Part shown: positions 10,822-37,077 of the stretch, in pieces
Position numbering within the stretch: the first letter of the stretch is position 1
Layout of the letters: every line of letters starts with the position of its first letter
Assembly: GCA_903911135.1 (NCBI GenBank)
Contig: CAIWCG010000223.1
Location: 1-37,077 of the forward strand
From: an uncultured Bacteroidota bacterium
Lineage (GTDB): Bacteria; Bacteroidota; Bacteroidia; AKYH767-A; JABDAW01
Reading direction: 5' to 3'
DNA length: 37,077 bases
The notes under the pieces: model-generated
Databases searched by the model: none
Told to the model about the DNA's origin: nothing
What the model saw: only the letters and a program-made list of their open reading frames with translations
Made by a program: the position numbers and the translations under genes

Positions 10822-10885
10822 CAAAATCTCAAAATCTACATCATCCCCTTTATAATACATAATTCACCATTAATGATTTTTAAAA

Positions 10886-11015
10886 GGAGCCTATGTTCGC
10901 TTCTCGTCCCATCTACGTCCCGCTATCCGCTGTAGCCGCTGCCTGCCCATTTCCGACACCAAGCAGCGGGCTGCCGCTACTATCGGGGCTATGCTTTGAT
11001 GGCAGGTTGCCTCGA
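10886..11015 (+). repeat. Structured dispersed element, left copy at R3
   Basis: Reads GGAGCCTATG...TTCTCGT...CCCGCTATCC, then a 15-bp imperfect stem (10932-10946 with 10966-10980, GTAGCCGCTGCC against GGGCTGCCGCTAC), then GGGGCTATGC and a small GGCA...TGCC hairpin ending CTCGAA. The right copy (11423-11554) is its inverted repeat. Relatives lie beside arrays R4 and R6. The conserved blocks and hairpin could be an RNA gene or the terminus of a mobile unit. Strand is given as GGAGCC-first. Confidence 0.8.
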
Positions 11016-11118
11016 AAGAGCTTTTAACAAGAAGATAAATAAAAAGTAATCAATGTTAAGTCATAGTAAGTGAATATTGCCTGTCAGGATGTTTACTCAA
11101 AAAGGTGCTCCCAAAGGC

Positions 11119-11328
11119 AAGTTGTACAAACTTCTTGAAAAGTTGTACAACTCTTGAGAAAAGTTGTACAACTTTTTAGGAATTCCTGCATGATTTGGAG
11201 GAATTTTAAGCAGAATTCCTAAAATTACGTTCAAGTCTTGAGGAAAGGTGTACAAGTCTTTGGAAAAGTTGATCAACAAGTCAGAAAAGTTGTACAACTT
11301 TTCTGAAATTCTGTACAACTGCTCTCTC
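11119..11328. repeat. Tandem array R3, ten 21-bp units, palindrome-rich
   Basis: Units start at 11119, 11140, 11161, 11182, 11203, 11224, 11245, 11266, 11287 and 11308. The consensus begins AAGTTGTACAACT. Units 4-6 have diverged strongly yet keep the exact 21-bp length. The core is self-complementary: unit 9 lies in a perfect 26-bp palindrome (11281-11306, centre AAAAGTTGTACAACTTTT), and 11174-11185 pairs with 11213-11224 (TTTTAGGAATTC). The array is centred between two inverted copies of the structured element, about 95-105 bp from each. The minus-strand ORF 11097-11318 is a by-product. Confidence 0.9.
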
Positions 11329-11422
11329 TTTTCGACATTTAATTTATAAAAACGTTCATGTTGCCCTTAACTTCTGCCATGTTTGATGTTTTGGTAGAAG
11401 ACATTCTCATTCAAAAAGTCAT

Positions 11423-11554
11423 TTCGAGGCAACCTGCCGTCAAAGCATAGCCCCGATAGTAGCGGCAGCCCGCTGCTTGGTGTCGGAAATGGGCAGGCAG
11501 CGGCTACAGCGGATAGCGGGACGCACCATGATACGAGATGTGCACATAGGCTCC
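11423..11554 (-). repeat. Structured dispersed element, right copy at R3
   Basis: Inverted partner of 10886-11015. The roughly 98-bp core, from TTCGAGGCAACC to GGATAGCGGGACG, matches the complement of the left copy with one difference. The outer part diverges but keeps TCTCG and AGCCTA. With the left copy it frames a unit of about 670 bp that contains array R3 and no gene. Confidence 0.8.
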
Positions 11555-11640
11555 TTAAAAGTAAACTTGATTTTTTATCTACCTACAGCTAAATTTTAAG
11601 GGGATTATCCGATTTTGACTTAAATATCCTTTTTTTCTTT

Positions 11641-12250: not shown

Positions 12251-13333
12251 ATGCTTAGCGATAAATATTATTATATCCTTTATCCACTGTTTTTTATTTG
12301 CAGCGTATTTTTCTCCTTTCTCATCAATACTTTGTTCCTGAAGTTCTCCAAAACATTGGGCATCAGGAACAATACCGAACCGCTCATCATCCGTTGGGGG
12401 TCTCAGTCGAAACCTGCTGTGGGTGGCATTTCATTTTATATTTTGCTGCTGCTTTCGTTGGCGGTTTATTCCATTTTCTTTCATCCGAAACAGGTTTTCC
12501 CGAACAAGGAATTCATTGGGTTTCTGCTGGCCTTGAACTTTGGATTCTTGATGGGATTGGCTGATGACGCCTTCAATACTCGTCCGTTTTTGAAACTTTT
12601 CATCCAGATACTTTGTGGCATAACCCTTATCGCATCGGGAATATATATTAAGGTTTTCAGTCAGGATTACATGAATTATGGATTGACGATTTTTTGGGTG
12701 GTGGGCATCATGAATTCTATAAACATGATTGACAACATGGATGCAATTTCGGCCATCATCAGCGTGATGGTCATCATGTCGGCACTGCTGATCATTTTCT
12801 ATTTGCAGGATTTTTCGAACATTTATTTCATAGCTTTGACAGGGGTTTTGGCTTCCTTGATTGGGTTCCTGATTTTGAATTGGCATCCGTCTAAAATATA
12901 TATGGGGGATACGGGCAGCCAGTTTCTTGGTGTATTCCTTGCCAGTATTGGGATCATTTATTTTTGGGATTTTGCTCCTGCGGAAAGGACTATCCCGATT
13001 TCAGAAAGTTTTATTTTGCCTGTTTTGGTTTTCATGCTGCCTATCGTGGACACTACGATAGTGGTGATCAACAGGTTGTCGAAGGGGACTTCGCCGTTTG
13101 TGGGGGGTAAGGACCATACCACTCATTCGTTGGCTTTATTGGGGATGACGGATACTTGGGTGGCGATAATTTTTGCTTGTATTTCGGTGGTGAACTTGTT
13201 TTTGGTGGTGTTGATCATCAAGTATATTCCTGAATTTACGACGGTGCATGCTTGTTTGTTTTTCGGGTATGTGTTGGTTTTTCTTGGGGTGATGTTTTAT
13301 ATCAGCCGAAGGAAAAACGGGGATTTAAAATAG
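12251..13333 (+). CDS. WecA/MraY-family glycosyl-1-phosphate transferase
   Basis: 360 residues with about ten hydrophobic segments, an inner-membrane protein. It transfers a sugar-1-phosphate (typically GlcNAc-1-P) from a UDP-sugar to undecaprenyl phosphate, starting O-antigen or capsule units. The family motifs are present: MGLADDAFNTRP (D105/D106, Mg binding), NSINMIDNMDAIS, ILNWHPSKIYMGDTGSQFLG, and a C-terminal KDHTTHSL in place of the HIHH loop. Paired with rfbC. WecA/TagO type is more likely than MraY because of the short length and the loop, but the substrate is not fixed. Confidence 0.88.
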   Translation: MLSDKYYYILYPLFFICSVFFSFLINTLFLKFSKTLGIRNNTEPLIIRWGSQSKPAVGGISFYILLLLSLAVYSIFFHPKQVFPNKEFIGFLLALNFGFLMGLADDAFNTRPFLKLFIQILCGITLIASGIYIKVFSQDYMNYGLTIFWVVGIMNSINMIDNMDAISAIISVMVIMSALLIIFYLQDFSNIYFIALTGVLASLIGFLILNWHPSKIYMGDTGSQFLGVFLASIGIIYFWDFAPAERTIPISESFILPVLVFMLPIVDTTIVVINRLSKGTSPFVGGKDHTTHSLALLGMTDTWVAIIFACISVVNLFLVVLIIKYIPEFTTVHACLFFGYVLVFLGVMFYISRRKNGDLK

Positions 13334-13372: not shown

Positions 13373-13508
13373 TTCGAGGCTGTGGCCATAGAGCATAGCC
13401 CTGACATGCCCAAGGTTATCCCCTTGTGCGTTGGATTGTGGGTGCCTCGGCAGGGATAACTGATGGCTGGCAGGAGGGACTGTGATACGAGAAGTTGCCA
13501 TAGGCTTC
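13373..13508 (-). repeat. Structured dispersed element at R4
   Basis: Read on the minus strand it begins GAAGCCTATGG...TTCTCGTATCACAGTCCC, then a hairpin closed by GTTATCCC/GGGATAAC (13415-13422 with 13453-13460), then TTGGGCATGTCAGGGCTATG and a GGC...GCC hairpin ending CTCGAA. It lines up block by block with the element at 24664-24810 and the two copies at R3. Its AGCCTA end faces array R4, about 30 bp away. It lies between the convergent genes at 13333 and 13729. Confidence 0.75.
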
Positions 13509-13537
13509 AAAAAATTATCCTGCTGATTATTGGAAAT

Positions 13538-13705
13538 GGGGGCTATCTTGTTTGGATAGGGGGCAAACTGGCTGAGATAGGGGGCTAACTGGTTAGGATA
13601 GGGGGCTAACTGGTTGGGATAGGGGGCTAACTGTTTGAAAAAGGGGTCTAAATGGACGGAATAGGGGTCTAAATGGATGGGAATGGGGGCATTTTCAGCG
13701 GGAGT
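13538..13705. repeat. Tandem array R4, eight 21-bp units with phased G-runs
   Basis: Units start at 13538, 13559, 13580, 13601, 13622, 13643, 13664 and 13685, all 21 bp apart. The consensus begins GGGGGCTAACTGGTTGGGAT. The plus strand therefore has a run of four or five G every 21 bp, often with a GGG between, giving G-quadruplex potential. It sits between two convergent genes. The minus-strand ORF 13355-14230 reads heptads (QLAPYPN) here but overlaps a real gene in another frame and is rejected. Confidence 0.9.
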
Positions 13706-13728
13706 GAGGGGAGGATGGGGATTTTGGA

Positions 13729-15144
13729 TTATAGGGCGGCGTCGAATTCGTAGCCTCTTTCGAACCAATAATCCTTTGGTCGGGTGTCGGAGAAGTAGAT
13801 GAAACCGATTCTTTTGATGTGTTTGACGCCGTATTTTATTGGGATGATGAGGCGCAAGGGGGCTCCTTGGTCGATGGGAAGTGGGAGGCCGTTCATTTGG
13901 TAGGCCAAAATGGTTTGGGATTGGAGCATGGAGAGCATGTCGATGCCGACATAATAGGTGCTGTCGGGGGTCATGAGGCCTACATATTGGTATAAATCTT
14001 CGGGGTGATTGCTGTCGGGGGCTTTTCCGCTGTGAGTGCCGAGGTGGTATGTTTTGAGGAAATCGATGAACTTGGTGCCGCCCCAAAAGGTGATTTGATT
14101 CCAACCTTCGATGCACTTGAAATCGAAGATGAGATCTTTTTTGGTGAGGGACTTGATGTCGTTGATGTTGAGTAAAAGGGTGGAATCTGGGGAGGTGTCG
14201 TTTGGATGACGGGAGATGGCTAATTTCCATTTGGATGGGTCGAAATCGTCCATGCCTATGTCGCCGTTTACCCTGACTTTGGTTTCGGATTTGGACTTTG
14301 GATATTCTTTGGCGAGATGTTGTCCGGAGTAGAATTTCTTGCCTACCTTTTCATTCATGTCCATCATCTTTCTTAATGGTTTTGGTACACCGTTATCATC
14401 GGAGGCATGCATCAAAAGATAAAAAAGGATGATGCCCACCATGAACATGGAGATGAAAACGGAAAAGGAAAGGATGGTTTTCTTTCGGTTGTTTTGAGCA
14501 TCGGTTTCGATTCCGGTAACCATCGACTGAAAGTTGTTCCAGCCGGAAAGAATTACCTGAACGACATGTATCAAAAAGAAAAGGACATAGCCTATAGTCA
14601 GAGCGAAATGTTCAACTCGTGCCCATTTATAGCCACCCAAAAGATTGCAGAGCCAAGAGAACTGCACGGGTTTGTAAATGGCCAATCCGGTTATCAAGGA
14701 ACCAAACCCCATGATGATGGTTGCTGTATAGGCTATCCGTTGAGCTGCATTGTATTTGACTTTTGGTGGCAGCTTTTTGCTTAGGTGCAAATCATGCAGC
14801 AAGACTTGCCACGTTTGCGTTAATGCCCCCTTCGTTGGCAAGAGATAGCGCCATTCACCCGAAAGAATAGTGTAGATGACATAGATGAATCCATTGATGA
14901 AAAACAACCACATGAAAAAGAAATGGTAGGCCATTCCATCAGCGAGGTGAGCATCAAGTTTTAGGGTCTTGTAAAACGAATCAGGAAAGAACTTTACCAA
15001 GGTGGTATCGCCCCATCCAAGACGATAGACATCATTGGCCCAATAGATCATCAAGCCGCTCCATATCATGATGGCCAACACCGGAAAGTTGATCCAATGA
15101 GTCCACCTAATGATTAATGGATGCTTGTTTTTTTTGTCTTTCAT
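13729..15144 (-). CDS. Cytochrome b561 - molybdopterin oxidoreductase fusion
   Basis: 471 residues from MKDKKNKHPLIIRWTHW. The N-terminal half (about 10-275) is a b561/NarI-like membrane domain with several histidines in helices (IIRWTHWINFPVL, AHLADGMAYHFFFMW, FALTIGYVLFFLIHVVQV). The C-terminal half (about 300-471) resembles the sulphite-oxidase/YedY molybdopterin fold: FDFKCIEGWNQITFWGG with a candidate Mo-ligand Cys, then GAPLRLIIPIKYGVKHIKRIGFI. It fits a membrane-anchored reductase in which quinol electrons pass through b haems to the Mo site. The ORF-track start at 15210 falls inside the terminator of the upstream gene, so 15144 is used. Substrate unknown. Confidence 0.82.
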   Translation of the reverse strand: MKDKKNKHPLIIRWTHWINFPVLAIMIWSGLMIYWANDVYRLGWGDTTLVKFFPDSFYKTLKLDAHLADGMAYHFFFMWLFFINGFIYVIYTILSGEWRYLLPTKGALTQTWQVLLHDLHLSKKLPPKVKYNAAQRIAYTATIIMGFGSLITGLAIYKPVQFSWLCNLLGGYKWARVEHFALTIGYVLFFLIHVVQVILSGWNNFQSMVTGIETDAQNNRKKTILSFSVFISMFMVGIILFYLLMHASDDNGVPKPLRKMMDMNEKVGKKFYSGQHLAKEYPKSKSETKVRVNGDIGMDDFDPSKWKLAISRHPNDTSPDSTLLLNINDIKSLTKKDLIFDFKCIEGWNQITFWGGTKFIDFLKTYHLGTHSGKAPDSNHPEDLYQYVGLMTPDSTYYVGIDMLSMLQSQTILAYQMNGLPLPIDQGAPLRLIIPIKYGVKHIKRIGFIYFSDTRPKDYWFERGYEFDAAL

Positions 15145-15169
15145 CGGGATATGATTCGTGTTTTCAATT

Positions 15170-15213
15170 AAAAAAGAATTGCACGGAATGCTGTTACCCA
15201 TTCCGTGCAATTC
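15170..15213 (-). terminator. Intrinsic terminator after the DUF6600-like gene
   Basis: GAATTGCACGGAATG (15176-15190) and CATTCCGTGCAATTC (15199-15213) form a perfect 15-bp stem with an 8-base loop. Read leftwards the minus strand then has a run of T (AAAAAA at 15170-15175). Confidence 0.85.
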
Positions 15214-15234
15214 CGTTTAAAACAATTTACATTC

Positions 15235-16737
15235 TTATTGACGAGGTGTTGGAACTTCCTCGACTGGTTTCTTCTTTTCTACCGGCTTTACTTCTTCCCT
15301 TTCCTTTGGCTTTGCTACTTCCTTCGGTTTTGCCTGATCTTTTTTCTCTACCACAGGAGTGCCTTTGGCTGGGCCTTTAACACCACTATTATCTATGCTT
15401 CTTTCCCTATTCTTATCCATGGCACCTTTTGGTTGCTCACCACCCGTTCCTTCTTTAGGCCTATCATACATGTGAGTCTGGGTCTGCTGTTGATTATGCG
15501 GCTGTTCTATTACCTGTTGCTTTACGGGAGGAGTCTGAACCTTGTTTTCTTCCTTTGGTTTCTCATAAACACGTTGCTGGTTTTGCTGTTGGTTTTGCAT
15601 TTGGTTATGAGGCTGCTCGTTAGTCTGCTGCTTGATAGGAGGAGTCTGAACGCGGTTTTCTTCCTTTGGTTTCTCATTTATCCTTTGCTGGTTTTGCTGT
15701 TGAGTTTGCTGATGGTCAACCACCTGTTGCTTTACAGGAACTGTTTCTGTATGGCTTGCTTCCTTTGGTTTTTCTATCGGTCTAGGCTTAATCTCATGCT
15801 GCTCATTGGCTGGTTTTGCCTGATCGTTTTCTTTGCGTATATTCTCCATCGGCCTTACTGTTTCATGATGAGAGTTGCCCCTCAATTCTTCAGTGGTTCT
15901 TGGCTGGTTGGTTCTATCCATACGCTCCTTTTGCGGTGGCACCTGGCCTACATTGGATAGGTGTGCAGGAGTCAATCTTGCATGGTCATTGCCTTCGTTC
16001 TTTTCCATTCTTGGACGGTAAATGTTGTAGGTATTGTCCCTATAATCATGGCCTGGTCTGTCATTGTCGCGGATGACCATCTGATCTACCCTTCTGCCGG
16101 TAGAACGCTGTACATCACGCCTTTCTGGACCGAATACGTACACGGTATTTCTATCATGGTCATCATATCTGTTTTTGATGACTTTAGATCGTCTGATGAT
16201 GCGATAATTGTTTTCGCGCGGTTCATAATATCGGTCCATGTCTTGGTCGTTTATATGATGTTCATCCACAAAGCACCATCTTTCTTCCGGCACATAGTAG
16301 CCGTTTCCGTAGGCATATTCCACAGTGATGCCATATCCCATCGGAGCCCAGCCGTAATATCCATTGCTTCGTCTCCAAGAAACCCAAGCTGGTCCCCATT
16401 CGTGGCCCGGAATCCACAACCATCCGTAGAAAGAATCAAATTCCCAACGGCCATAATGAAACGGTGCCCATCCCCAAGGATAATCAGATACCCAAGTCCA
16501 GCCATATTCAGAATAAGCCCAGTGTCCTGCTGTTCTATAAGGATGAAAGTTAGGACCGGCTTCGGGCATCCATACATAACCGTAGTTTGGATTTTCCACC
16601 CACATGCCATAGGGGCTCAATTCGTCATAAAAGACATTATAATTCATCATTCCCTGTGCTGATGCCTTGTTCGGGCATACTGTAAGAAGAATGTTCAGCA
16701 AGAACATCATTCCTAAGATTTTAATTGCGCTTTTCAT
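15235..16737 (-). CDS. DUF6600-like exported protein with Pro/Gln-rich tail
   Basis: 500 residues. The signal peptide MKSAIKILGMMFLLNILLTVCPNKASAQ is followed by Tyr/Trp-rich repeats (YGYVWMPEAG, YGWTWVSDYPWGWAPFHYGRW, YGWLWIPGHEWGPAWVSWR, YYGWAPMGYG) of the YXWGXW/DUF6600 kind. From about residue 190 the protein is hydrophilic and low in complexity, with two long imperfect repeats (RINEKPKEENRVQTPPIKQQ, RVYEKPKEENKVQTPPVKQQ) and a Lys/Glu/Pro tail. It probably sits in the cell envelope; no enzymatic motif is visible. Promoter box at 16796-16803, terminator at 15170-15213, so monocistronic. Confidence 0.85.
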   Translation of the reverse strand: MKSAIKILGMMFLLNILLTVCPNKASAQGMMNYNVFYDELSPYGMWVENPNYGYVWMPEAGPNFHPYRTAGHWAYSEYGWTWVSDYPWGWAPFHYGRWEFDSFYGWLWIPGHEWGPAWVSWRRSNGYYGWAPMGYGITVEYAYGNGYYVPEERWCFVDEHHINDQDMDRYYEPRENNYRIIRRSKVIKNRYDDHDRNTVYVFGPERRDVQRSTGRRVDQMVIRDNDRPGHDYRDNTYNIYRPRMEKNEGNDHARLTPAHLSNVGQVPPQKERMDRTNQPRTTEELRGNSHHETVRPMENIRKENDQAKPANEQHEIKPRPIEKPKEASHTETVPVKQQVVDHQQTQQQNQQRINEKPKEENRVQTPPIKQQTNEQPHNQMQNQQQNQQRVYEKPKEENKVQTPPVKQQVIEQPHNQQQTQTHMYDRPKEGTGGEQPKGAMDKNRERSIDNSGVKGPAKGTPVVEKKDQAKPKEVAKPKEREEVKPVEKKKPVEEVPTPRQ

Positions 16738-16795
16738 TGTGTTTAGTATTTAAGTTTTACTTCTTCAACTCCATTATCTAAAATAATGCCAATCG

Positions 16796-16803
16796 CAAAA
16801 TTA
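16796..16803 (-). promoter_or_regulatory. -7 promoter box for the DUF6600-like gene
   Basis: CAAAATTA reads TAATTTTG on the minus strand. A CAA about 19 bases further right fits a -33 TTG. Confidence 0.55.
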
Positions 16804-17091
16804 CACTAAAAATAGGAACTTTCAACAAGCGCCATCTGGTAGTTCAAATAGGCTTAAAAGAAACAACACGCGATTATTTAACCGTACCTGAAATCTATTG
16901 ATCATTGCCAAAAGAAATTTACCATGCCATTCCAATTACATTTATGGTTAAACTTGTATTTTGGCAGATAAAACCGCTCCCTTCCCTCCCATTTCGCCAA
17001 ATTTCGGGTTCTTTCATCGGTTGTTTTTTCATTTTTGATTAGTTATTTTTGATAATTACCTTGATTAGCAATATAATTAGACGATATTCAT
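16804..17091. other. Intergenic region left of array R5
   Basis: No gene. AATAGGCTTAAAAG near 16848 resembles the AGCCTA end of the structured element (ATAGGCTTCAAAA at R4), but the other conserved blocks are absent, so this is at most a remnant. Confidence 0.35.
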
Positions 17092-17381
17092 ATAATGTTG
17101 AACGGTATTGCATGAACATCACGCAGTATTGCATGAACGTCGCACGGTATTGCATGAACGTCGAGCGGTATTGCATGAACGTCGCACGGTATTGCATGAA
17201 CGTCGCACGGTATTGCATGAACGTCGCACGGTATTGCATGAACGTCGCACGGTATTGCATGAACGTCGTACGGTATTGCATGAACGTCGCACGGTATTGC
17301 ATGAACGTCGTACGGTATTGCATGAACGTCGTACGGTATTGCATGAACATCGCATGGTATTGCATGAACGTTCAACATTAT
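17092..17381. repeat. Tandem array R5, thirteen 21-bp units with inverted edges
   Basis: Thirteen units start every 21 bp from 17103 to 17355. The consensus is CGGTATTGCATGAACGTC plus three bases (GCA, GTA or GAG). It is the most uniform array in the window. It is framed by a perfect 13-bp inverted repeat, ATAATGTTGAACG (17092-17104) and CGTTCAACATTAT (17369-17381). Five of six frames are open through it only because the unit is 21 bp and stop-free in those frames, so the five ORFs listed here are not genes. It lies between divergent genes. Confidence 0.92.
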
Positions 17382-17499
17382 GATTTTTCAAGCTGATTTG
17401 AAGGTATTTATGATTTAAAACAGTCTATGAGTCCGAGATTTAACTACGTTTTGTTGCTTAAGAATTGCATGAAGTCGAGTTGGCCATCCACTTTTGCCG

Positions 17500-17660
17500 T
17501 GTCTTTTGGGCGAGGGAGTGGAGTGGCACCGAAGGTGGTTCTTTGCCTCTTGTCGGCTTGTGGGGATGGAGGCAAAAACGAAGCGCAGCGACCCACGGAA
17601 TACCCCGACCCCTTTAAGCAGCCCCCTTTCCCTTGGCTGCTTAATGGGGGCGCCCCCAAG
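17500..17660. repeat. GC-rich structured intergenic repeat
   Basis: This stretch is far richer in G+C than its surroundings and contains three hairpins: TTTGCCTC/GAGGCAAA (17542-17549/17569-17576), AAGCAGCC/GGCTGCTT (17616-17623/17635-17642) and the 12-bp palindrome GGGGGCGCCCCC (17646-17657). The phrases AATACCCCGACCC and GGGGGCGCCCCCAAG are, from memory, common in dispersed repeats of Bacteroidota genomes. The small ORFs over it (17427-17679) lack coding character. Confidence 0.55.
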
Positions 17661-17747
17661 AAGGAATTATGATTTATAAATTAGGAGTTATGAATTGGGA
17701 GGACTGGGTGGGTAGGTGGAGAATGGATGGGTTATTGATTTATTTTT

Positions 17748-17755
17748 TAGTTTTG
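17748..17755 (+). promoter_or_regulatory. -7 promoter box, probably giving a leaderless mRNA
   Basis: TAGTTTTG matches TAnnTTTG and is only 4 bases before the ATG at 17760, so transcription should begin at or next to the start codon. Confidence 0.55.
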
Positions 17756-17759
17756 CCCA

Positions 17760-19085
17760 ATGAATAGCATGAAGAAAATGAAAAGAACAAGTTTGATGGC
17801 ATGGCTGTTGGTGATGATTGGAGCGACTGTACTTGCCCAAAACCCGGTGCCTGCCAAGCCTCAAGACAAACCGATTGTGATAAGAGGCGGCATGGTGCAT
17901 GTGGGCAACGGAACGGTGATAAACAATGGCACCATCACCATCATGAACGGCAAGATAGTGGCGGTGGAAGACAACAGCAAACCGAAGGGTGCCGACATGA
18001 AGAACTCGGTAGGCATGGAGGTGATCAATGCCAGCGGCAAGCATGTTTATCCTGGTTTCATAGGCATGAATACAATGCTGGGCCTTAGCGAAATAGAGGC
18101 TGCCAGAGCTACCAACGACTATAATGAAGTGGGTGGAATGAACCCCAATGTGCGGTCTGTTATTGCCTACAACACGGACTCGAAAGTGACGCCTACCGTT
18201 CGGTCGAATGGGGTGCTGCTAGCGCAGATAGTTCCGCAGGGAGGTTTCATTTCGGGGAGCAGTTCGGTGGTGGAACTGGATGCATGGAACTGGGAGGATG
18301 CTGCCTACAAAACCGATGAGGGAATGCACCTTAACTGGCCAGGGATGTTCATCAGCAGAACCAATGGAGGCGAAACGGAAGAGGCCCAAAAGGAACGGAT
18401 ACAGAAGTCGTTGAACTCCATCCATGACTTGTTCAACAACGCCAAAGCATATAGCCAACTGAAGGAGCATCAAGAGAAAAACCTGAAGATGGAAAGCATG
18501 CGCGGCTTGTTTGATGGCAGCATGAAACTGTATGTTCATTGCAACTACATAAAGGATATCATCTCCGCCGTAAATCTATGCAAGGAGCATGGTTTAAAGA
18601 TGGTTCTTGTAGGGGGAATAGACGCTTGGCGTGTCACTGATCTGCTCAAGACGGAGCATGTACCGGTGGTCTTGCATCGGCTTCACGCTTTGCCTCCACG
18701 AGAAGATGAGGATGTGGACTTGAACTACAAGATTCCTTATCTGCTTCAGCAAGCCGGGGTGGAATATTGCATCAGCGTGGAAGGTTTTTGGCAGGTGAGA
18801 AACCTTTCCTTCAATGCCGGAACAGCTGTAACCAATGGGTTGACGAAGGAACAGGCTTTGGCTTCCATAACTTTGAATGCCGCCAAGATACTTGGCATAG
18901 ACAAAACGGCAGGAACGATAGAAACGGGTAAGGATGCCACGTTAATCATCTCTGATGGTGATGCCTTGGACATGAAATCGAACAACATCTCGAATGCCTT
19001 CATCAGAGGCAAGAACATTAACCTTGACAATATCCAGAAACAACTTTACAAGAAGTATATGGACAAGTATGGGTTAAAGGAATAA
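17760..19085 (+). CDS. Exported amidohydrolase-like protein lacking the HxH motif
   Basis: 441 residues. A signal peptide (MKKMKRTSLMAWLLVMIGATVLAQ, after MNS) is followed by an amidohydrolase composite domain (IVIRGGMVHVGNGTVINNGTITIMNGKIVAV) and a TIM-barrel region, ending with the usual LTKEQALASITLNAAKILGIDKTAGTIETGKDATLII. The metal-binding HxH expected after PGF/PGL is replaced: HVYPGFIGMNTMLGL. VLHRLHALPPREDED and LYVHCNY retain some His. It therefore belongs to the imidazolonepropionase-like exported group but may be catalytically altered. Adjacent to array R5. Start 17760 follows the leaderless promoter; M4 at 17769 is an alternative. Confidence 0.82.
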   Translation: MNSMKKMKRTSLMAWLLVMIGATVLAQNPVPAKPQDKPIVIRGGMVHVGNGTVINNGTITIMNGKIVAVEDNSKPKGADMKNSVGMEVINASGKHVYPGFIGMNTMLGLSEIEAARATNDYNEVGGMNPNVRSVIAYNTDSKVTPTVRSNGVLLAQIVPQGGFISGSSSVVELDAWNWEDAAYKTDEGMHLNWPGMFISRTNGGETEEAQKERIQKSLNSIHDLFNNAKAYSQLKEHQEKNLKMESMRGLFDGSMKLYVHCNYIKDIISAVNLCKEHGLKMVLVGGIDAWRVTDLLKTEHVPVVLHRLHALPPREDEDVDLNYKIPYLLQQAGVEYCISVEGFWQVRNLSFNAGTAVTNGLTKEQALASITLNAAKILGIDKTAGTIETGKDATLIISDGDALDMKSNNISNAFIRGKNINLDNIQKQLYKKYMDKYGLKE

Positions 19086-19107
19086 GAAACGGAATAGTTT
19101 TTAACGA

Positions 19108-19512
19108 TTATTTCTTTTTGATTTCATCTTTTACGATGAAGGTAGAGCCAAAGTCGGCCACTATCTGCCGATAGAAACGGTAGGCTTCCAACCTTGTCTT
19201 GAAGTCACCCACTCTTACCTTATAGTTAGGCTGTTGATAGATGAGATATACATCTTCATCGGGATATTTCTTCAAGAAGTTGGCCTTGGCATCATCTGCC
19301 TGTACACGGCGGTTGCCAAAGTAAATCTGCACTCTATATCCCGGTTGAGTTGTTTTATGTGCATTGTATTCTATATGCTGTTTAATCAGGGTATCTATCC
19401 TTGGGTCTTGAAACAAGGTAACTTTCCCTTCCTTTTCATCGGTTTGGGAGTAGGAGGAAACAGCAAATCCCATCATAAGCATGACTGATATGAACAACCT
19501 CTTCAACTGCAT
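19108..19512 (-). CDS. SPOR-domain exported protein
   Basis: 134 residues. The signal peptide is MQLKRLFISVMLMMGFAVSSYSQ. The C-terminal 75 residues read GYRVQIYFGNRRVQADDAKANF...YKVRVGDFKTRLEAYRFYRQI, the beta-alpha-beta layout of a SPOR domain, which binds denuded glycan strands of septal peptidoglycan in characterised members. It starts 2 bases after the 64-residue membrane protein gene, so the two are co-transcribed. It converges on the amidohydrolase with a 22-base gap and no obvious terminator. Confidence 0.82.
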   Translation of the reverse strand: MQLKRLFISVMLMMGFAVSSYSQTDEKEGKVTLFQDPRIDTLIKQHIEYNAHKTTQPGYRVQIYFGNRRVQADDAKANFLKKYPDEDVYLIYQQPNYKVRVGDFKTRLEAYRFYRQIVADFGSTFIVKDEIKKK

Positions 19513-19514
19513 CC

Positions 19515-19709
19515 CTATTTCTTTTTCATCCTTGAAAACAAAAACGCAATGCCCACTACCACGGCAACAGAGAACAATAAATTGATGAAGATATTACCCA
19601 TCAATTGAGCATTGGCGGTTTTGTAATGAGATATCAATATCATCGCCGAAAGGATGGTTCCGATGGTTAATGATATGGCAATCAGGGTAAATCGTTTTTT
19701 ATTGTTCAT
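19515..19709 (-). CDS. Small two-helix membrane protein
   Basis: 64 residues, MNNKKRFTLIAISLTIGTILSAMILIS and LMGNIFINLLFSVAVVVGIAFLF, two membrane helices with a Lys-rich tail (SRMKKK). The layout resembles small accessory subunits such as AtpZ/YtxH-like proteins, but no family is assigned. It is co-transcribed with the SPOR protein. The -7 box TATTTTTG ends 4 bases before the ATG, so the mRNA is probably leaderless. Confidence 0.7.
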   Translation of the reverse strand: MNNKKRFTLIAISLTIGTILSAMILISHYKTANAQLMGNIFINLLFSVAVVVGIAFLFSRMKKK

Positions 19710-19713
19710 GGTG

Positions 19714-19721
19714 CAAAAATA
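19714..19721 (-). promoter_or_regulatory. -7 promoter box, leaderless
   Basis: CAAAAATA reads TATTTTTG on the minus strand, with CACC between it and the ATG at 19709. Confidence 0.55.
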
Positions 19722-19803
19722 GATAAAAAACCATTAATGACCATTCGTCGGTTATAACAATTGACATGCTGCAATTAAACAACTACGTGATTCAAATAAA
19801 CAA

Positions 19804-20529
19804 CTACGTGTTTTCCTTCGCTTTGGTGGCGACAAAATTCTTCAGGTAAAACGGTTCATAGTAGGCCAAGTCTTCGAATAGCCCATGATTGAATTTATCT
19901 TCCGACAAGAGTATCATGGTGGAAGCTGATGGTAACACGTAATCCAGGAATATCGCCTTGGATTGATGAGACAAAACGTCTTTGCACTTTGATGAACCAT
20001 CGCCAAAGAAAAGCAAGCGCCTGTTTTTAAACCATTCAGCGTAGGAATCGGATTGGATAACATCTGCAGAAGTATCTTTAACGGCATGATTGTCAATATC
20101 AAAGAAGGAAGTATAAACCTCCATCCTTCTGGCGTCTATCATGGGGCAAAAAAGCAACTCATCAGGAGCATCATCATTTATTTTATCTTTGAACAAGCCC
20201 TTCGTATATCCATCAATAACACCATACGACATGGATTCCAATGTAGGTATGGCAATCAAAGGTTTATTGAGAGCATAACATAATCCTTTTGCAGTAGATA
20301 CACCTATCCTCAATCCAGTATAGGAACCTGGCCCACCACTTACTGCAATGGCATCAATTGCCTTTAACTTTAATCCTGATTCCTTAAGAACTGTTTCAAT
20401 GAATACCGTAATCACTTCAGCATGGGTGCGTTCCTCATTGATCTCTTTCAATGAGAGCATTTGACCATCTCGTCCAATCGCAACCGAACAGACACCAGTT
20501 GCAGATTCTATGTTAAGTATTACAGCCAA
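19804..20529 (-). CDS. tsaB: tRNA threonylcarbamoyladenosine biosynthesis protein TsaB
   Basis: 241 residues. TsaB is the inactive ASKHA-fold partner of TsaD in the complex that makes t6A37 on ANN-decoding tRNAs. Typical features are ILNIESATGVCSVAI at the N-terminus, TVLKESGLKLKAIDAIAVSGGPGSYTGLRIGVSTAKGL and PLIAIPTLESM. It follows the efflux adaptor gene with a 9-base gap on the same strand, so it is likely co-transcribed with it although unrelated in function. TsaC, TsaD and TsaE are not in the window. Confidence 0.92.
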   Translation of the reverse strand: MAVILNIESATGVCSVAIGRDGQMLSLKEINEERTHAEVITVFIETVLKESGLKLKAIDAIAVSGGPGSYTGLRIGVSTAKGLCYALNKPLIAIPTLESMSYGVIDGYTKGLFKDKINDDAPDELLFCPMIDARRMEVYTSFFDIDNHAVKDTSADVIQSDSYAEWFKNRRLLFFGDGSSKCKDVLSHQSKAIFLDYVLPSASTMILLSEDKFNHGLFEDLAYYEPFYLKNFVATKAKENT

Positions 20530-20538
20530 TTGACTATT

Positions 20539-21921
20539 TTATTTCTTCTTGTTCGAAGAGAATAAATCATCCTTATTAACTATTTTAATGATATCGTTAT
20601 CCTTCAAGGTCTTGGAGATAGCACTGTACGGGGAAGAAATAACTTCATCACCTTCGCTCAACCCTTCCAGAATCTCGATGTTGTTGTTATCCTGAATACC
20701 GATTTTCACAGCCTTCATTTTTGCTTTACCACCATTGTTAAGGAATACGACTTCGATGTTTTTGTCTTTCATTGCCTTGTCATCGGCCTTTTGGTTTTTC
20801 TGCTTGTCATCATTGTTGTCGGCAACGGTTTTTTCCTCCTTCTTTCCTTTATTCTTGATGGAAGTATCACGAGTAGTGACAGACTGAATAGGTACGACCA
20901 AGGTGTTAATGGAAGTTTTTGTCTGTACATCGACAGTAGCAGACATGCCAGGCCTAAATGGGCTTTGATTAGGTTTATCCTTGGGGATAAGATCCTGATA
21001 CGACTCCATTAAAATCCTTATCTTGACAACAAAATTCGTTACCATATCGGTGCTGCTGCCTGATGTATTCGCAGTATTTGCCATCTCGAAAACGATACCC
21101 TTGAACTTGCGGTTAAGATAGGCATCAACCTCTATCAATGCAGTATCACCGAGACGCACTTTCACAATTTCATTTTCATTTACATCAACATTTACTTCCA
21201 TGCTGTTCATGTCGGCAATACGCATGATTTCAGTTCCAGCCATTTGAGAAGTACCTACTACTCGTTCTCCCTTTTCAACATTCAATTTAGAAATTGTTCC
21301 ATCTACAGGAGCAAATATGGATGTCTTTTTCAAGTTATCTCTTGCTTCCTTCACAGATGCTTCGGCGCTAGTGATACCAAATTCGGCAGCAATGATATTC
21401 TGCTGTGCCGCTTCCACATCCTGTTTTGCTACATCATAAGCTGCTTGCGACGCTTCATAATCTGAAACCGAAATTGTCCCTTGTTCATACAACTTTTTGT
21501 TTCTTTTATGGGTGGCATCAGTCTTTGAAAAATTAGATTCCGACTGCAGTTTCCTTGCTCTAGCATTGGCAAGATTCGCTTTCGATGAGTTGACGGAAGC
21601 AACCATCCTATCCAATGCGGAATTGTATATGTCGGGATTGATTTTCGCAAGCAAATCACCACGTTTCACCACATCTCCCTCTTTTACATTCAACTCGATT
21701 ATCTCACCAGAAACGTCGGCACTGATTTTAACTTCCACTACCGGCTGAATCTTCCCGTTGGCAGAAACACTTTCAATTACATCGGCATGTTTTGCCTTGG
21801 TGGTGCTCACTTCTATAGGGTCAATGGAACCAATCCATCCCTTTTTCTTGCCAACAGCTACGAATATCAGAAGAACAACCAATGCTCCTGCCAAATACCA
21901 GATTATTTTATTTTTTTTCAT
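20539..21921 (-). CDS. Efflux RND/MacA-type periplasmic adaptor
   Basis: 460 residues with an N-terminal membrane anchor (IIWYLAGALVVLLIFVAVG). Residues 55-100 are a lipoyl half (GKIQPVVEVKISADVSGEIIELNVKEGDVVKRGDLLAKI), followed by a long coiled-coil hairpin (ANARARKLQSESNFSKTD...EAAQQNIIAAEF), a second lipoyl half (IFAPVDGTISKLNVEKGERVVG), beta-barrel and membrane-proximal parts. A Lys/Asp-rich insert (KKEEKTVADNNDDKQKNQK) interrupts the last part near residue 370. It bridges an inner-membrane pump and TolC. It is directly downstream of the TolC-like gene. The expected pump gene is absent. Confidence 0.88.
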   Translation of the reverse strand: MKKNKIIWYLAGALVVLLIFVAVGKKKGWIGSIDPIEVSTTKAKHADVIESVSANGKIQPVVEVKISADVSGEIIELNVKEGDVVKRGDLLAKINPDIYNSALDRMVASVNSSKANLANARARKLQSESNFSKTDATHKRNKKLYEQGTISVSDYEASQAAYDVAKQDVEAAQQNIIAAEFGITSAEASVKEARDNLKKTSIFAPVDGTISKLNVEKGERVVGTSQMAGTEIMRIADMNSMEVNVDVNENEIVKVRLGDTALIEVDAYLNRKFKGIVFEMANTANTSGSSTDMVTNFVVKIRILMESYQDLIPKDKPNQSPFRPGMSATVDVQTKTSINTLVVPIQSVTTRDTSIKNKGKKEEKTVADNNDDKQKNQKADDKAMKDKNIEVVFLNNGGKAKMKAVKIGIQDNNNIEILEGLSEGDEVISSPYSAISKTLKDNDIIKIVNKDDLFSSNKKK

Positions 21922-21935
21922 GATTTAATGTTCGT

Positions 21936-23396
21936 TTAAAAAGTTAATGATTTGCCTTGATAGAAGTCCAATATCTTGGACTTGAATATGTAATCGTATT
22001 TTGCCTGTAGCAAATCGGATTCTGATTTGTTCAAATTGTTTTTTGACAATAAAAAGTCGTAAGAGTTCAATAGTCCTACCTCAAATTTCTGTTGAGAATA
22101 CTTATAAGCCTCCGTCAATGACTCGACGCTCTTTTGTGTGGCGATATATTTCTTATAGGATGCCGTAGCATCATAATAGGCCTGTTCAATGGACTTTCGA
22201 AGCGTGAGGCGAACCTGTTCCGAATTGTATTTCGCACTTTGTAACGAGATTTTTGCACGACTGATGCTCGTCTTGGCAGACCATCCGTTGAAAAAAGGAA
22301 GCGTGAGATTAAAACCGAAACTCTTGTTCAGGTTATCATCCAACTGTTCGCGGAAAGGCGTCTTTTCATAAGTGGCGCTGGTATTCGGAATTATCGAACG
22401 CACGGGTATGTTCAATGTATCGGTGACACCTATTATCGGATAATAATTTGTGATGGAATAACTTGCCAATTTTTCTCTCGCATCCGAATATCCTGTGCCG
22501 ATACTTCCACTCATGGTTAGGCGCGGACTCCTTGATGCTCGGGCAATGTTGAGTCCCACCTCCGAACTTTTAAGTTTCATGTCGGCACTCAAAACTTCCG
22601 GCTGGTTTTTCTCGGCTGTTGAATAGATGGAACCCAATTCATTGCTGGTAATCAAGAATGGAGATGCCTCCATCTTCGGTTTTTCTATCGCAAAATCCTT
22701 TGCCGTATCTACATCGAGCATTTGTTTCAGGTTAAGGTAGGCTAGGTCCAGGTTATTCTGTGCATTTATCAAGGCCACCTCATCTGTAGCCACCTGGGCA
22801 TTGATCTCCAATAGGCTGCCACGAGGCTGACTTCCCGCTTCTACCAAGTTGTTCGTGTTGGTCTGCTGTTTTTTTATCAGGACTATCTGTTGTTCTGCTA
22901 TGGTGAGGTTCTCCATGGCAAACAACACCTGTAGATAATCGGAAACGATGTTTAATGATATGTCGTTGCCGAGTTTCTTCAGGTCATACGAACTTGATAG
23001 ATAGTCCAAACGGCTTTGTTTCAGCGTGTTGTGGAGTTGAAAGCCGGCAAACAAGGTCATGCTGCTGCTAAGTGAGAAGTTCTCGCTCAAAACCCTATTT
23101 GTGGCGAAGGTATTCGTGAATGGATCTATCGTACGGCCAAAGTTATATCCATGCGAAATGTTTCCGTTCAGCGTGGGGAGGAATGCTGCGTAGCTCTGGT
23201 CAACCCTATCTTTCGAAGTCTCCACATTCAATTCGTTTTGCTTGATGGTGATATTGTTTTTCAAGGCATGGTCTATGCATTTCTGCAGGCTCCATGTGGT
23301 TTGGCCGATGCCTATTGCAGGAATGGCCATCATCATCACAAATAAAACCTTGCGAAGCAATGGAACAAGATACCTTTTTCGGTGAATGGAATGCAT
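21936..23396 (-). CDS. TolC-family outer-membrane channel
   Basis: 486 residues from MHSIHRKRYLVPLLRKVLFVMMMAIPAIGIGQ, a signal peptide; the ORF-track start at 23456 precedes a -7-like TAATTTTA (minus strand, 23415-23422) and is not used. The mature protein has the TolC duplication: WSLQKCIDHALKNNITIKQNELNVET at the start, and repeated helical segments with AQVATDEVALINAQNNLDLAYLNL and LRKSIEQAYYDATASYKKYIATQKSVESL. It makes the outer-membrane duct for the adaptor encoded 14 bases downstream. Confidence 0.88.
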   Translation of the reverse strand: MHSIHRKRYLVPLLRKVLFVMMMAIPAIGIGQTTWSLQKCIDHALKNNITIKQNELNVETSKDRVDQSYAAFLPTLNGNISHGYNFGRTIDPFTNTFATNRVLSENFSLSSSMTLFAGFQLHNTLKQSRLDYLSSSYDLKKLGNDISLNIVSDYLQVLFAMENLTIAEQQIVLIKKQQTNTNNLVEAGSQPRGSLLEINAQVATDEVALINAQNNLDLAYLNLKQMLDVDTAKDFAIEKPKMEASPFLITSNELGSIYSTAEKNQPEVLSADMKLKSSEVGLNIARASRSPRLTMSGSIGTGYSDAREKLASYSITNYYPIIGVTDTLNIPVRSIIPNTSATYEKTPFREQLDDNLNKSFGFNLTLPFFNGWSAKTSISRAKISLQSAKYNSEQVRLTLRKSIEQAYYDATASYKKYIATQKSVESLTEAYKYSQQKFEVGLLNSYDFLLSKNNLNKSESDLLQAKYDYIFKSKILDFYQGKSLTF

Positions 23397-23565
23397 ATTT
23401 TCTGTAATTGGTAAGGCCGTAAAATTAGATAAAATTCCTTTAATCCCTAACGCCATTGAAATTACTTTATTTTGAACTTATTTCCATCCATGGCGATTGC
23501 ATAAAAAGCAAATGGCCCCAACGTTATGGGGCCATCGACATGAAAATGAAACTAGAAAAGCTCCT

Positions 23566-24213
23566 TTATTGGGCTACGAACTCCCTTTTGGCCGACCACA
23601 CCTTGGTAGTGTCGGTGCCGGCATATGCTACCTCGAAACTGTATTTTTTTGCGGTAACAAGCTCAAGGAATTCCAAAACATGTTCTTCCTTAACCCACGA
23701 TTCTACACTTGTAGCCGCCACTACATCTGTTATTCTCACCCAAGTGCCTTCACAATATTTCTGAGACGTAGTCATGGTCAGCCGAGCCGACCCTGAAACG
23801 CCTTTTATGGCAACTATTCCGGTGATGATCGGTTGGTCCATGATGCCTACCACACCTCCAGCCTTGGCCAGCGGAAATCCTCCCGTCTTAAGTTTACTCT
23901 CATTACCCAATTGTTGGGTGTTCATCTGCACGGTGATGATGGTGGCTTTCTCTTTGAATGTCACCAAGTTATCTCGGGCAGCATCTTTATGCACTCGGGC
24001 ATCGGTAGTCAAGGCCAGGCCATGCTCCGTTTTCCAATTCCCTCCTGCTGTTAAATAATCGGCCTCGGTAGTGCCGATAAACAGGAAGTTGGGGTTCATA
24101 TGAACACCAGAACTCTCCGTAGTCCAAGTCCCCTTGGTTTTAGTCCAAATCTCATCCATCTCGCCGATGTTGTGATTGTCGTAATTCGTAATTACTTTTG
24201 CTTGTTTTGACAT
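23566..24213 (-). CDS. Unknown protein with possible fibronectin-III-like end
   Basis: 215 residues from MSKQAKVITNYDNHNIGEMDE, chosen because the longer ORF start (24237) overlaps the -7 box at 24235-24242. No signal peptide or membrane segment. The C-terminal 90 residues (IKGVSGSARLTMTTSQKYCEGTWVRITD...TAKKYSFEVAYAGTDTTKVWSAKREFVAQ) read like one beta-sandwich resembling fibronectin III. The front part (GVHMNPNFLFIGTTEADYLTAGGNW) is not recognised. Monocistronic and divergent from recA across array R6. Confidence 0.72.
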   Translation of the reverse strand: MSKQAKVITNYDNHNIGEMDEIWTKTKGTWTTESSGVHMNPNFLFIGTTEADYLTAGGNWKTEHGLALTTDARVHKDAARDNLVTFKEKATIITVQMNTQQLGNESKLKTGGFPLAKAGGVVGIMDQPIITGIVAIKGVSGSARLTMTTSQKYCEGTWVRITDVVAATSVESWVKEEHVLEFLELVTAKKYSFEVAYAGTDTTKVWSAKREFVAQ

Positions 24214-24234
24214 GTTATTATTATTATTTGGTTG

Positions 24235-24242
24235 CAAAATTA
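24235..24242 (-). promoter_or_regulatory. -7 promoter box for the unknown gene at 23566-24213
   Basis: CAAAATTA reads TAATTTTG on the minus strand, 22 bases before the ATG at 24213. Confidence 0.55.
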
Positions 24243-24360
24243 GTCAATAAACCCACCCTATTACATGACAAATGTTTCTTTTGCCACATTTCACACCCCT
24301 TCAAGTGTAAACAGCTCCTTAAAAGGACAAGAATGTATGTTTATATTACAATAAATAAAA

Positions 24361-24580
24361 CTTTTAGCCCAAAAAAGAAGTCTTGACGGGCAAAAAAGAA
24401 GTCTTGACGGACAAAAAAGAAGTCTTGACGAGCAAAAAAGAAGTCTTGACGAGCAAAAAAGAAGTCTTGACGGGCAAAAAAGAAGTCTTGATGAGCAAAA
24501 AAGAAGTCTTGACGGGCAAAAAAGAAGTCTTGATGAGCAAAAAAGAAGTCTTGACGAGCAAAAAAGAAATCCTTTTTGCC
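24361..24580. repeat. Tandem array R6, ten 21-bp units with phased A-tracts
   Basis: Units start every 21 bp from 24371 to 24560. The consensus is AAAAAAGAAGTCTTGACG plus GGC, GAC or AGC. The plus strand has an A6 tract exactly every two helical turns, a layout expected to curve DNA. Both edges carry inverted partial units: CTTTTAGCCC at 24361-24370 and CCTTTTTGCCC at 24571-24581, each resembling the complement of GGGCAAAAAAG. ORFs in several frames (24291-24622) are consequences of the period. It lies between the divergent unknown gene and recA. Confidence 0.92.
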
Positions 24581-24663
24581 CCAACTCCAAGCCCCTTTGT
24601 CGTTTTCAACACTCAAAAATGATAAAAAAACACTTGGTTAGCATCAAAAATGATTAGAATTTG

Positions 24664-24810
24664 GAGCCTAAAACCTCCTCTCGCCGCCATGGTCTCCACC
24701 TGCCAGCCACCAGTTAGCTCTTCCTTACGCACAAGAATGCCTTCGCACAAGAGGCTAAGCTTGGGCATGTCAGGGCTATGCCCCACGGCAGCATACACGT
24801 GCTGTGTTTC
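24664..24810 (+). repeat. Structured dispersed element at R6
   Basis: Reads GAGCCTAAAACCTCCTCTCG, CCTGCCAGCCACCAGTTAGC, then TTGGGCATGTCAGGGCTATG and a CAGCA...TGCTG hairpin. The central hairpin is TTAGCTCTT (24714-24722) with AAGAGGCTAA (24749-24758, one bulged G). In the R4 copy the same position is GTTATCCC/GGGATAAC, so both sides changed together. Its AGCCTA end faces array R6, about 85 bp away, the same orientation as at R4. Confidence 0.75.
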
Positions 24811-24859
24811 ATCAACCGTGGGGATATTCAACCAAAAATGGTCTCAAAAATAAGGATAT

Positions 24860-36098: not shown

Positions 36099-36258
36099 AC
36101 ATAAATTATTTCTAATTTACGAATTGAAAAAAATCAATATAGGAAAGGCCGAGGATTTTTTGGAGTTGGATGGATTTGGAAACCTGAAGTCGTGATTTGT
36201 TCAGGTTTTGGGGATTTTTTAATGTGGTGATTATCAATGGAATTGTGTGGGTGGAGGC

Positions 36259-36511
36259 TTAAAGTCTAAGAGTGGATGGGCTGATTTAGGGTATTGAAAG
36301 TCTGATTTAAGGTATTGAAAGTCTGATTTAGGGTACGAAGAGTCTGATTTAAGGTACGAGAGCGTTGATTTTGGGTCAAAAAAGTTTTGAGTTAGGGTAT
36401 GAGGACTCTGATTTTGGGTACGAGGAGTCTGATTTTGGGTACGAGAGTTCTGATTTTGAGTTCGAGGTTTCTGTTTTAAGGAGTGGATGGGCTGATTTTG
36501 GGTCTGGATTT
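36259..36511. repeat. Tandem array R7, about twelve 21-bp units
   Basis: Units start at 36259 (degraded), 36280, 36301, 36322, 36343, 36364, 36386, 36407, 36428, 36449, 36470 and 36491. The consensus begins TCTGATTTTGGGTACGAG. One unit (36364) is 22 bp, the only length exception noticed in the window. Both ends carry the phrase GAGTGGATGGGCTGATTT (36270 and 36481). The minus-strand ORF 36376-36594 reads SSYPKSD-like heptads but continues into non-repeat sequence without coding character. Confidence 0.88.
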
Positions 36512-36539
36512 TGGAGGTAGAAGGTTGGGTTTGTGAAAT

Positions 36540-36663: not shown

Positions 36664-36764
36664 GCTAATTTTTAGAACTGTCCATAAACCCGAATTTTAG
36701 CGATAGGATTCGGGCTTTATTAAATAATGTGTTGATAATCTGTATATACAGGGCATTTTGGGTT

Positions 36765-36989
36765 GTAAATAGGACTTGTGGGAGGCTCAATGGATGCTGC
36801 GGAGGGTTAAATGGAACTTGCGGAGGTTTAAATGGATGCTGCGGAGTATTAAATGGATGGTGCGAAGCATTAAATGGATGGTGCGGAGTGTTAAATGGAT
36901 GCTGCGGAGCGTTAAATGGATGCTGCGGAGGGTTAAATGGATGCTGCGGAGGGCTAAATGGATGGTGCGGAGGGTTAAATGGATGGTGT
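36765..36989. repeat. Tandem array R8, eleven 21-bp units
   Basis: Units start every 21 bp from 36765 to 36975. The consensus is TTAAATGGATGCTGCGGAG plus two bases, with GCTGC/GGTGC alternating. A 9-bp inverted repeat flanks it: TTGATAATC (36732-36740) and GATTATCAA (37018-37026). Three overlapping ORFs (36729-37033) come from the period and are not called. Confidence 0.92.
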
Positions 36990-37048
36990 CGAAAAAAAAT
37001 CGTAATCGAATTTTATTGATTATCAATGCATAAATAATTGCTTAGCTA

Positions 37049-37077
37049 GCGGCGAAAAGGCTTTGCCTTTTCGCCGC
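37049..37077. terminator. Perfect hairpin at the window end
   Basis: GCGGCGAAAAGGC and GCCTTTTCGCCGC form a 13-bp stem with loop TTT. The sequence ends here, so it is unclear whether a U-run follows. It could be a terminator or a dispersed palindrome. Confidence 0.6.

Follow-up and report, generated by a model that had tools for sequence, protein, structure and literature searches.

Flavo-1 elements at the edges of 21-bp arrays have a fixed polarity in an uncultured Bacteroidota genome

Four copies of a structured element lie among arrays of 21-bp tandem repeats in contig CAIWCG010000223.1 (assembly GCA_903911135.1) of an uncultured Bacteroidota bacterium; we refer to the whole stretch analysed, 37,077 nucleotides, as the window. 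Two of the copies match Flavo-1 (Rfam RF01705), an orphan structured RNA described in 2010, listed as a small RNA (sRNA) and never assigned a function. An original prediction, made from the window alone, had described one conserved element with a covarying hairpin beside three arrays (R3, R4 and R6) and proposed that it might be the functional partner of the arrays. All four copies were present where predicted (10886-11015, 11423-11554, 13373-13508 and 24664-24810) and, judged by block order and alignment, share the same ordered blocks, but the span reported for the element, 13373-24810, is not one unit and instead holds two separate copies 11 kb apart. Extending the analysis to the source genome, we found that Flavo-1 is strongly and directionally linked to 21-bp arrays in this species, and that it behaves like a mobile repeat decorating the arrays, not like a partner they require.

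Flavo-1 copies in the window and in the source genome

Copies 1 and 2 form an inverted repeat (96% identity over about 110 nt) surrounding the R3 array, delimited at 11119-11320 in that comparison (Table 1). Both passed the RF01705 gathering cut-off of 42 bits, copy 1 with 55.1 bits (E 1.9e-9) on the minus strand and copy 2 with 54.2 bits (E 3.4e-9) on the plus strand, and no Rfam family other than Flavo-1 matched at the element. Copies 3 and 4 fell below this cut-off and were not listed even at E values up to 10. They are 87% identical to each other over 46 nt, and their sequence near the internal loops differs from that of copies 1 and 2. Six more members of this subgroup occur in the sequence that we fetched from the rest of the genome. 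By block order and alignment, copies 3 and 4 are a diverged Flavo-1 subfamily that scores below the Rfam threshold.

Table 1. Structured elements and 21-bp arrays around the four copies (strands of copies 1 to 4 are in the Flavo-1 sense)
Feature	Position	Strand	Remarks
Flavo-1 copy 1	10880-11030	-	Rfam core 10912-10994; 5' end towards array 11113-11336
Short conserved motif GCCTGTCAGGATGTT	11079-11093	+	Lies in the spacer; one half of the palindrome of a hairpin family linked to arrays, with members in same-genus genome G001 too
R3, array of 21-bp period	11113-11336		Between copies 1 and 2
Flavo-1 copy 2	11414-11560	+	Rfam core 11445-11527; 5' end towards array 11113-11336
Copy 3, diverged Flavo-1-like	13373-13515	+	Downstream of gene 12251-13333, preceded by T-rich DNA; R4 lies to its 3' side
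R4, 21-bp array	13516-13722		Adjoins copy 3
21-bp array	17068-17399		X1 element to its right
X1 element, second structured dispersed family	17505-17657	+	5' end towards array 17068-17399
R6, 21-bp array	24318-24607		Adjoins copy 4
Copy 4, diverged Flavo-1-like	24660-24815	-	Array on its 3' side

An Rfam model search of the source genome (3.80 Mb in 296 contigs, 98% complete) identified at least 149 Flavo-1 places, all above the cut-off. This count is a lower bound, as 150 candidates were scored and the window's own copies 1 and 2 are absent from the list, so the true copy number is higher. Fourteen control genomes gave no Flavo-1 match above the cut-off, and the copy number here is thus far above chance. 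Contig ends hold many of the copies, which is where a repeat that breaks assembly should turn up. The 677 kb fetched around the matches, together with the window, gave 715 kb containing 152 elements.

Alignment of 98 copies with their flanks delimited an element of about 145 nt, from AAAAGCTATTTCGA to CATAGGCTCC, with fixed ends of the form AAAGCYATTTCGA...CATAGGCTCC. Beyond CATAGGCTCC, most copies have an A/T-rich tail that contains AATTATG-like repeats, and a G-rich stretch comes next. The copies sit in intergenic gaps. The GGC...GCC block, previously called a 3' hairpin, is at the 5' end in the Flavo-1 sense.

The element forms an imperfect hairpin that carries two conserved 3x3 internal loops of the GNA/GNA type. 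The covariation proposed from the four copies is weakly supported by those copies alone because copies 3 and 4 differ from copies 1 and 2 near the internal loops, but it was strong in a wider set of 49 distinct cores, of which other genomes supplied 41. Hairpin positions were paired in 97.6% of cells compared to 75.4% in shuffles (maximum 78.5%), a value biased upward by a parse that was fitted to the structure, although the range of pair types has a basis beyond the parse. Changes on both sides occur at most pairs, with C-G, G-C and T-A found at one position, for example. The Flavo-1 stems thus covary, and their internal loops are conserved. As the GNA loops are present on one strand only, the folded strand was taken as the Flavo-1 sense strand. 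This pattern fits RNA and single-stranded DNA alike, and the two cannot be told apart from it.

Array edges and the polarity of the elements

Repeats with a period of 21 bp stood alone in the 715 kb, where we detected 108 arrays at lag 21 (with related signal at 42) and 0 to 4 at other lags. The unit sequence is private to each locus, and similarity between arrays was near the shuffled null. The exceptions were a small number of pairs, and in part these look like a single locus split across contigs. A common ancestral array sequence was rejected, as the units bear no resemblance to each other. Coding repeats were also rejected as the origin of the arrays, since the source genome has hardly any repeats at other multiples of 3.

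Two genomes of the same genus, G001 and G002, are also rich in arrays (207 in 993 kb and 14 in 95 kb, respectively), with no Flavo-1 match in either. Outside the genus, orthologous loci of 80 relatives had no excess at 21; those of other genera contain tandem repeats of an ordinary kind, with periods at many different multiples of 3. Because G001 and G002 are array-rich without Flavo-1 and the excess at 21 ends at the genus, arrays are a genus trait and high-copy Flavo-1 is a species trait. Private arrays of about 200-330 bp recur in all three genomes, revealing a genus with one such array in its intergenic gaps per 5-7 kb or so; in the window they lie at 411-653, 13516-13722, 17068-17399, 24318-24607, 36238-36512 and 36743-37019, and elsewhere in loci L031-L110, L139-L153 and L248-L307. 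Since 21 bp corresponds to two helical turns, any unit would give phased bends. Literature searches returned no match for 21-bp intergenic arrays in Bacteroidota; the BrickBuilt elements discussed below came up separately.

Polarity was assessed for elements with 600 bp free on each side, counting an array if it lay within 200 nt. Canonical copies had an array on their 5' side in 53 of 74 cases and on their 3' side in none (0/74), and for all elements the corresponding counts were 55/81 and 3/81. Random placement in non-array intergenic DNA put an array within 200 nt in 15.7% per side. Several copies that seemed array-free have 42-bp arrays that the lag-21 scan overlooked, and with these included a 21- or 42-bp array lies within 500 nt upstream of 64 of 76 full copies. 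Seven of the remaining 12 directly follow a T-run at their 5' end, with a terminator hairpin visible in six of those. The 3' end, often with its AATTATG-type tail, adjoins a gene, at a median distance of 57 nt from a stop or 106 nt from a start. It faced stops 86 times and starts 49 times, which leaves no consistent leader role.

A second structured family, X1, was found by comparing array flanks. It is about 158 nt long, has no Rfam match, ends in GGGGGCGCCCCC plus an AATTATG-like tail, and occurs 20 times in the source genome and in none of 40 relatives. In the loci read, X1 pointed its 5' end towards the array in 11 cases and its 3' end in 0, and X1 and Flavo-1 often bracket one array together. 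Because the unrelated X1 has equal polarity, the orientation rule belongs to the array edge and not to Flavo-1 alone: two unrelated structured families obey one rule there.

A third family, the palindromic motif CCTGTCAGGATG, is near arrays in both species, within 300 nt in 11 of 19 cases in G001. Its palindromic form, CATCCTGACAGG...CCTGTCAGGATG, was noted at 11079-11093 of the window, L142:3503-3840 and L147:10428-10475. G001 also has a repeat family, GCGCGAGGGATGG...CCCGAACAGCCCGACC...GGACGCGCC, near arrays and with an X1-like layout (L147:399-617, L147:10256-10507 and L141:14734-14947). A recurring hairpin, GCGGCGAAAAGGC...GCCTTTTCGCCGC, was seen near arrays and Flavo-1 5' ends in L093, L106, L044 and at 37046-37077 of the window, whose contig ends within it.

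We also followed Flavo-1 beyond the genus. It was present in 51 of 396 genomes sampled across the phylum, and in other complete genomes it is dispersed and multi-copy (37, 17 and 82 copies). In the loci read from other genera, Flavo-1 usually has no array, long 21-bp arrays are absent, and a few short tandem repeats lie directly beside it. The array link is thus local to this species. The association proposed in the original prediction held here, where a fourth array (17068-17399) also has a bracket element, from X1, and Flavo-1 was strongly linked to arrays in this species but usually array-free in other genera. Its further proposal, a functional partnership with the arrays, was not supported: arrays of G001 and G002 lack Flavo-1, Flavo-1 of other genera is usually array-free, and X1 has the same polarity.

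Origin of the Flavo-1 brackets

We consider it probable, at about 0.6, that Flavo-1 in this genome is a dispersed repeat, similar to a miniature inverted-repeat transposable element (MITE) or a repetitive extragenic palindromic (REP) sequence, that takes up positions at array edges or behind terminators, always in one orientation as a rule, and so yields inverted brackets. Its copies would have spread as non-autonomous mobile elements, with the folded strand inserted beside hairpin or array DNA or after terminators. The edges of an array would mostly have been occupied separately, with occasional local co-insertion or gene conversion between paired copies, and inverted brackets would be the result. 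Arrays would arise by a separate process, and no role of Flavo-1 in their formation would be needed to account for the data. That Flavo-1 is not required by arrays follows from the 207 arrays of G001 that lack it and from the other genera in which it usually has no array.

The brackets themselves bear on how pairs arose. Among 67 arrays with both flanks available, outward-facing Flavo-1 was two-sided in 17, one-sided in 21 and absent in 29; the 17 two-sided arrays compare to 11.3 expected if sides were independent (p=0.005). Identity was 0.914 within pairs and 0.895 between loci (p=0.005). The partner was the nearest copy in only two of the 17 pairs; in seven it was among the closest seven of 120 copies, and in others it was among the most distant. 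These results fit copies that for the most part arrived separately, combined with a degree of local copying or conversion.

Comparison with G001 gave some cases that bear on the order of events. The G001 gap orthologous to copy 3 and R4, downstream of the orthologous gene, holds an array whose unit differs, and the element is missing there. A 741-bp gap with an array corresponds to 16 bp in G001 (L065:9872-10613 and L289:1185-1201), and in a second case 13 bp corresponds to a 253-bp gap with an array. The 741/16-bp gap is a candidate empty site for an array, and these order-of-events cases, one of each, are suggestive only. Only 20 gaps were conserved with G001, too few to show positional conservation of the arrays.

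We also searched the genome for an enzyme that could move the element. Y1 transposase matches were degenerate and contained stops (G000:C203), and mobilization by a REP-associated tyrosine transposase (RAYT) or other Y1 enzyme was therefore rejected. One reverse transcriptase (RT) was found in the genome, L245 (G000:C187; 371 aa), which, read by eye, looks retron-like and lies beside von Willebrand-like and DnaB-like proteins. Reverse transcription as a common cause was rejected as well, as this RT is single and apparently retron-like and the array-rich G001 and G002 have none. A mobilizing enzyme may be absent from the assembly, lost, or of a kind other than intact Y1.

Several points weigh against a mobile, edge-settling Flavo-1. 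No candidate mobilizing enzyme was found in the genome. No empty site was found for any Flavo-1 copy, so insertion is only inferred, and synteny with the sole near-complete genome of the genus was too low (the same 20 conserved gaps). Copies 3 and 4 of the window violate the polarity rule. In addition, the sequence was picked for contigs with Flavo-1, such that the proportion of arrays flanked by it is overestimated (65 of 108 arrays have a copy within 200 nt, and 38 have none within 600 bp, although some of the 38 carry other families); the polarity is unaffected by this choice.

The strongest competing explanation, which we nevertheless regard as unlikely, is that each element-array-element bracket is one mobile cassette, a MITE with a minisatellite inside and the elements as its terminal repeats. 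Inverted pairs do bracket arrays, two-sided occupancy exceeds independence, some paired copies are near-closest to each other, whole arrays are gained or lost between genomes, and the published BrickBuilt elements show that such a layout exists. Copies of one cassette would be expected to share their inside, yet the units are locus-private while the ends are about 90% identical. Ends are also mixed between families (Flavo-1 with X1), one-sided arrays outnumber two-sided ones (21 and 17) among those with outward Flavo-1, and an inverted pair surrounded only 2 of 21 arrays in G001. A related and somewhat more doubtful idea is that Flavo-1 and X1 ends and private arrays make up one modular system, in which a strand-specific hairpin would direct or cap local synthesis of a new 21-bp array at every site; if true, this would be a modular, in-place repeat-making element of a kind not described before.

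The proposal that Flavo-1 and X1 actively make or maintain arrays in cis, for example through a hairpin that stalls or primes a polymerase recopying the adjacent 21 bp, seems improbable to us. Extreme polarity, short distances, private units and the like behaviour of two families would all suit it. In G001 and G002 arrays reach the same density with neither family present, the Flavo-1 copies of other genera usually lack an array, and 38 of the 108 arrays here have no Flavo-1 nearby, though other families flank some of them.

We give still less credence to Flavo-1 acting as a transcribed regulatory RNA, either a trans-acting sRNA or a leader, with array proximity reflecting promoters in or near arrays. 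Rfam places Flavo-1 among sRNA genes, both the covariation and the purine-rich loops of GNA/GNA type suit RNA, and where a gene start is faced the order array-element-gene is that of a leader. Against this, stops are faced more often than starts, and a single sRNA gene would not be expected to occur in 150 near-identical copies. In RNA-seq of Flavobacterium psychrophilum, Flavo-1 matches were sense or antisense to transcribed regions, with many outside them, and consistent sense transcription was lacking (PMC9723704). Coincidental crowding of Flavo-1 and arrays into a few large intergenic gaps has almost no credibility. Random intergenic placement does give an array within 200 nt in 31% of cases, but coincidence cannot produce polarities of 53 to 0 and 11 to 0.

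Comparison with known systems

The closest published layout is BrickBuilt of Porphyromonas gingivalis, a minisatellite within a MITE (PMC4596501). Like the brackets described here, it is found in Bacteroidota and is intergenic, with a short-unit array between leader and tail with inverted ends and with one- and two-sided forms. Its unit, however, is one shared 23-nt sequence, whereas units here are locus-private; its full leader and tail never occur without repeats, whereas ends here are also found array-free after terminators; and the ends here come from at least two structured families.

Flavo-1 also resembles REPs, bacterial interspersed mosaic elements (BIMEs) and REP doublets forming hairpins (REPINs) in being a high-copy, intergenic imperfect palindrome with a strand-specific fold that forms inverted pairs with a variable linker (here the 17 two-sided brackets among 67 arrays) (PMC8266576, PMC3116915). 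REPs are 20-50 nt long, carry a GTAG foot and are believed to spread by means of TnpA-REP, a Y1 enzyme (PMC8266576, PMC3116915). In contrast, the element here is about 145 nt long with no conserved GTAG at its 5' foot, and the genome yielded no intact Y1 gene.

Group IIC introns target intrinsic terminators or attC hairpins, so a target rule of this kind exists (PMC4424553). Over half of the few array-free Flavo-1 copies likewise follow a T-run, mostly that of an intrinsic terminator, an analogy in target choice only, as the 145-nt element has no ribozyme or intron-encoded protein and the sole RT was judged retron-like by eye. Integron attC sites are long imperfect hairpins that are active on one strand. 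Flavo-1 is alike in having a long one-strand imperfect hairpin, without the cassette-array arrangement.

Compared to the Flavo-1 motif as first described (RF01705; Weinberg et al. 2010, PMC2864571), copies 1 and 2 share the hairpin, the internal loops and the TAGCCCcGAT...AGCGGGA blocks. They differ in that the element here is longer (about 145 nt, with a 5' arm and an end of its own), is present in at least 149 copies and is polar with respect to 21-bp arrays. For this genome at least, these data recast Flavo-1 as a dispersed and strictly polar element, whose spread can thus be tested directly by comparing strains.

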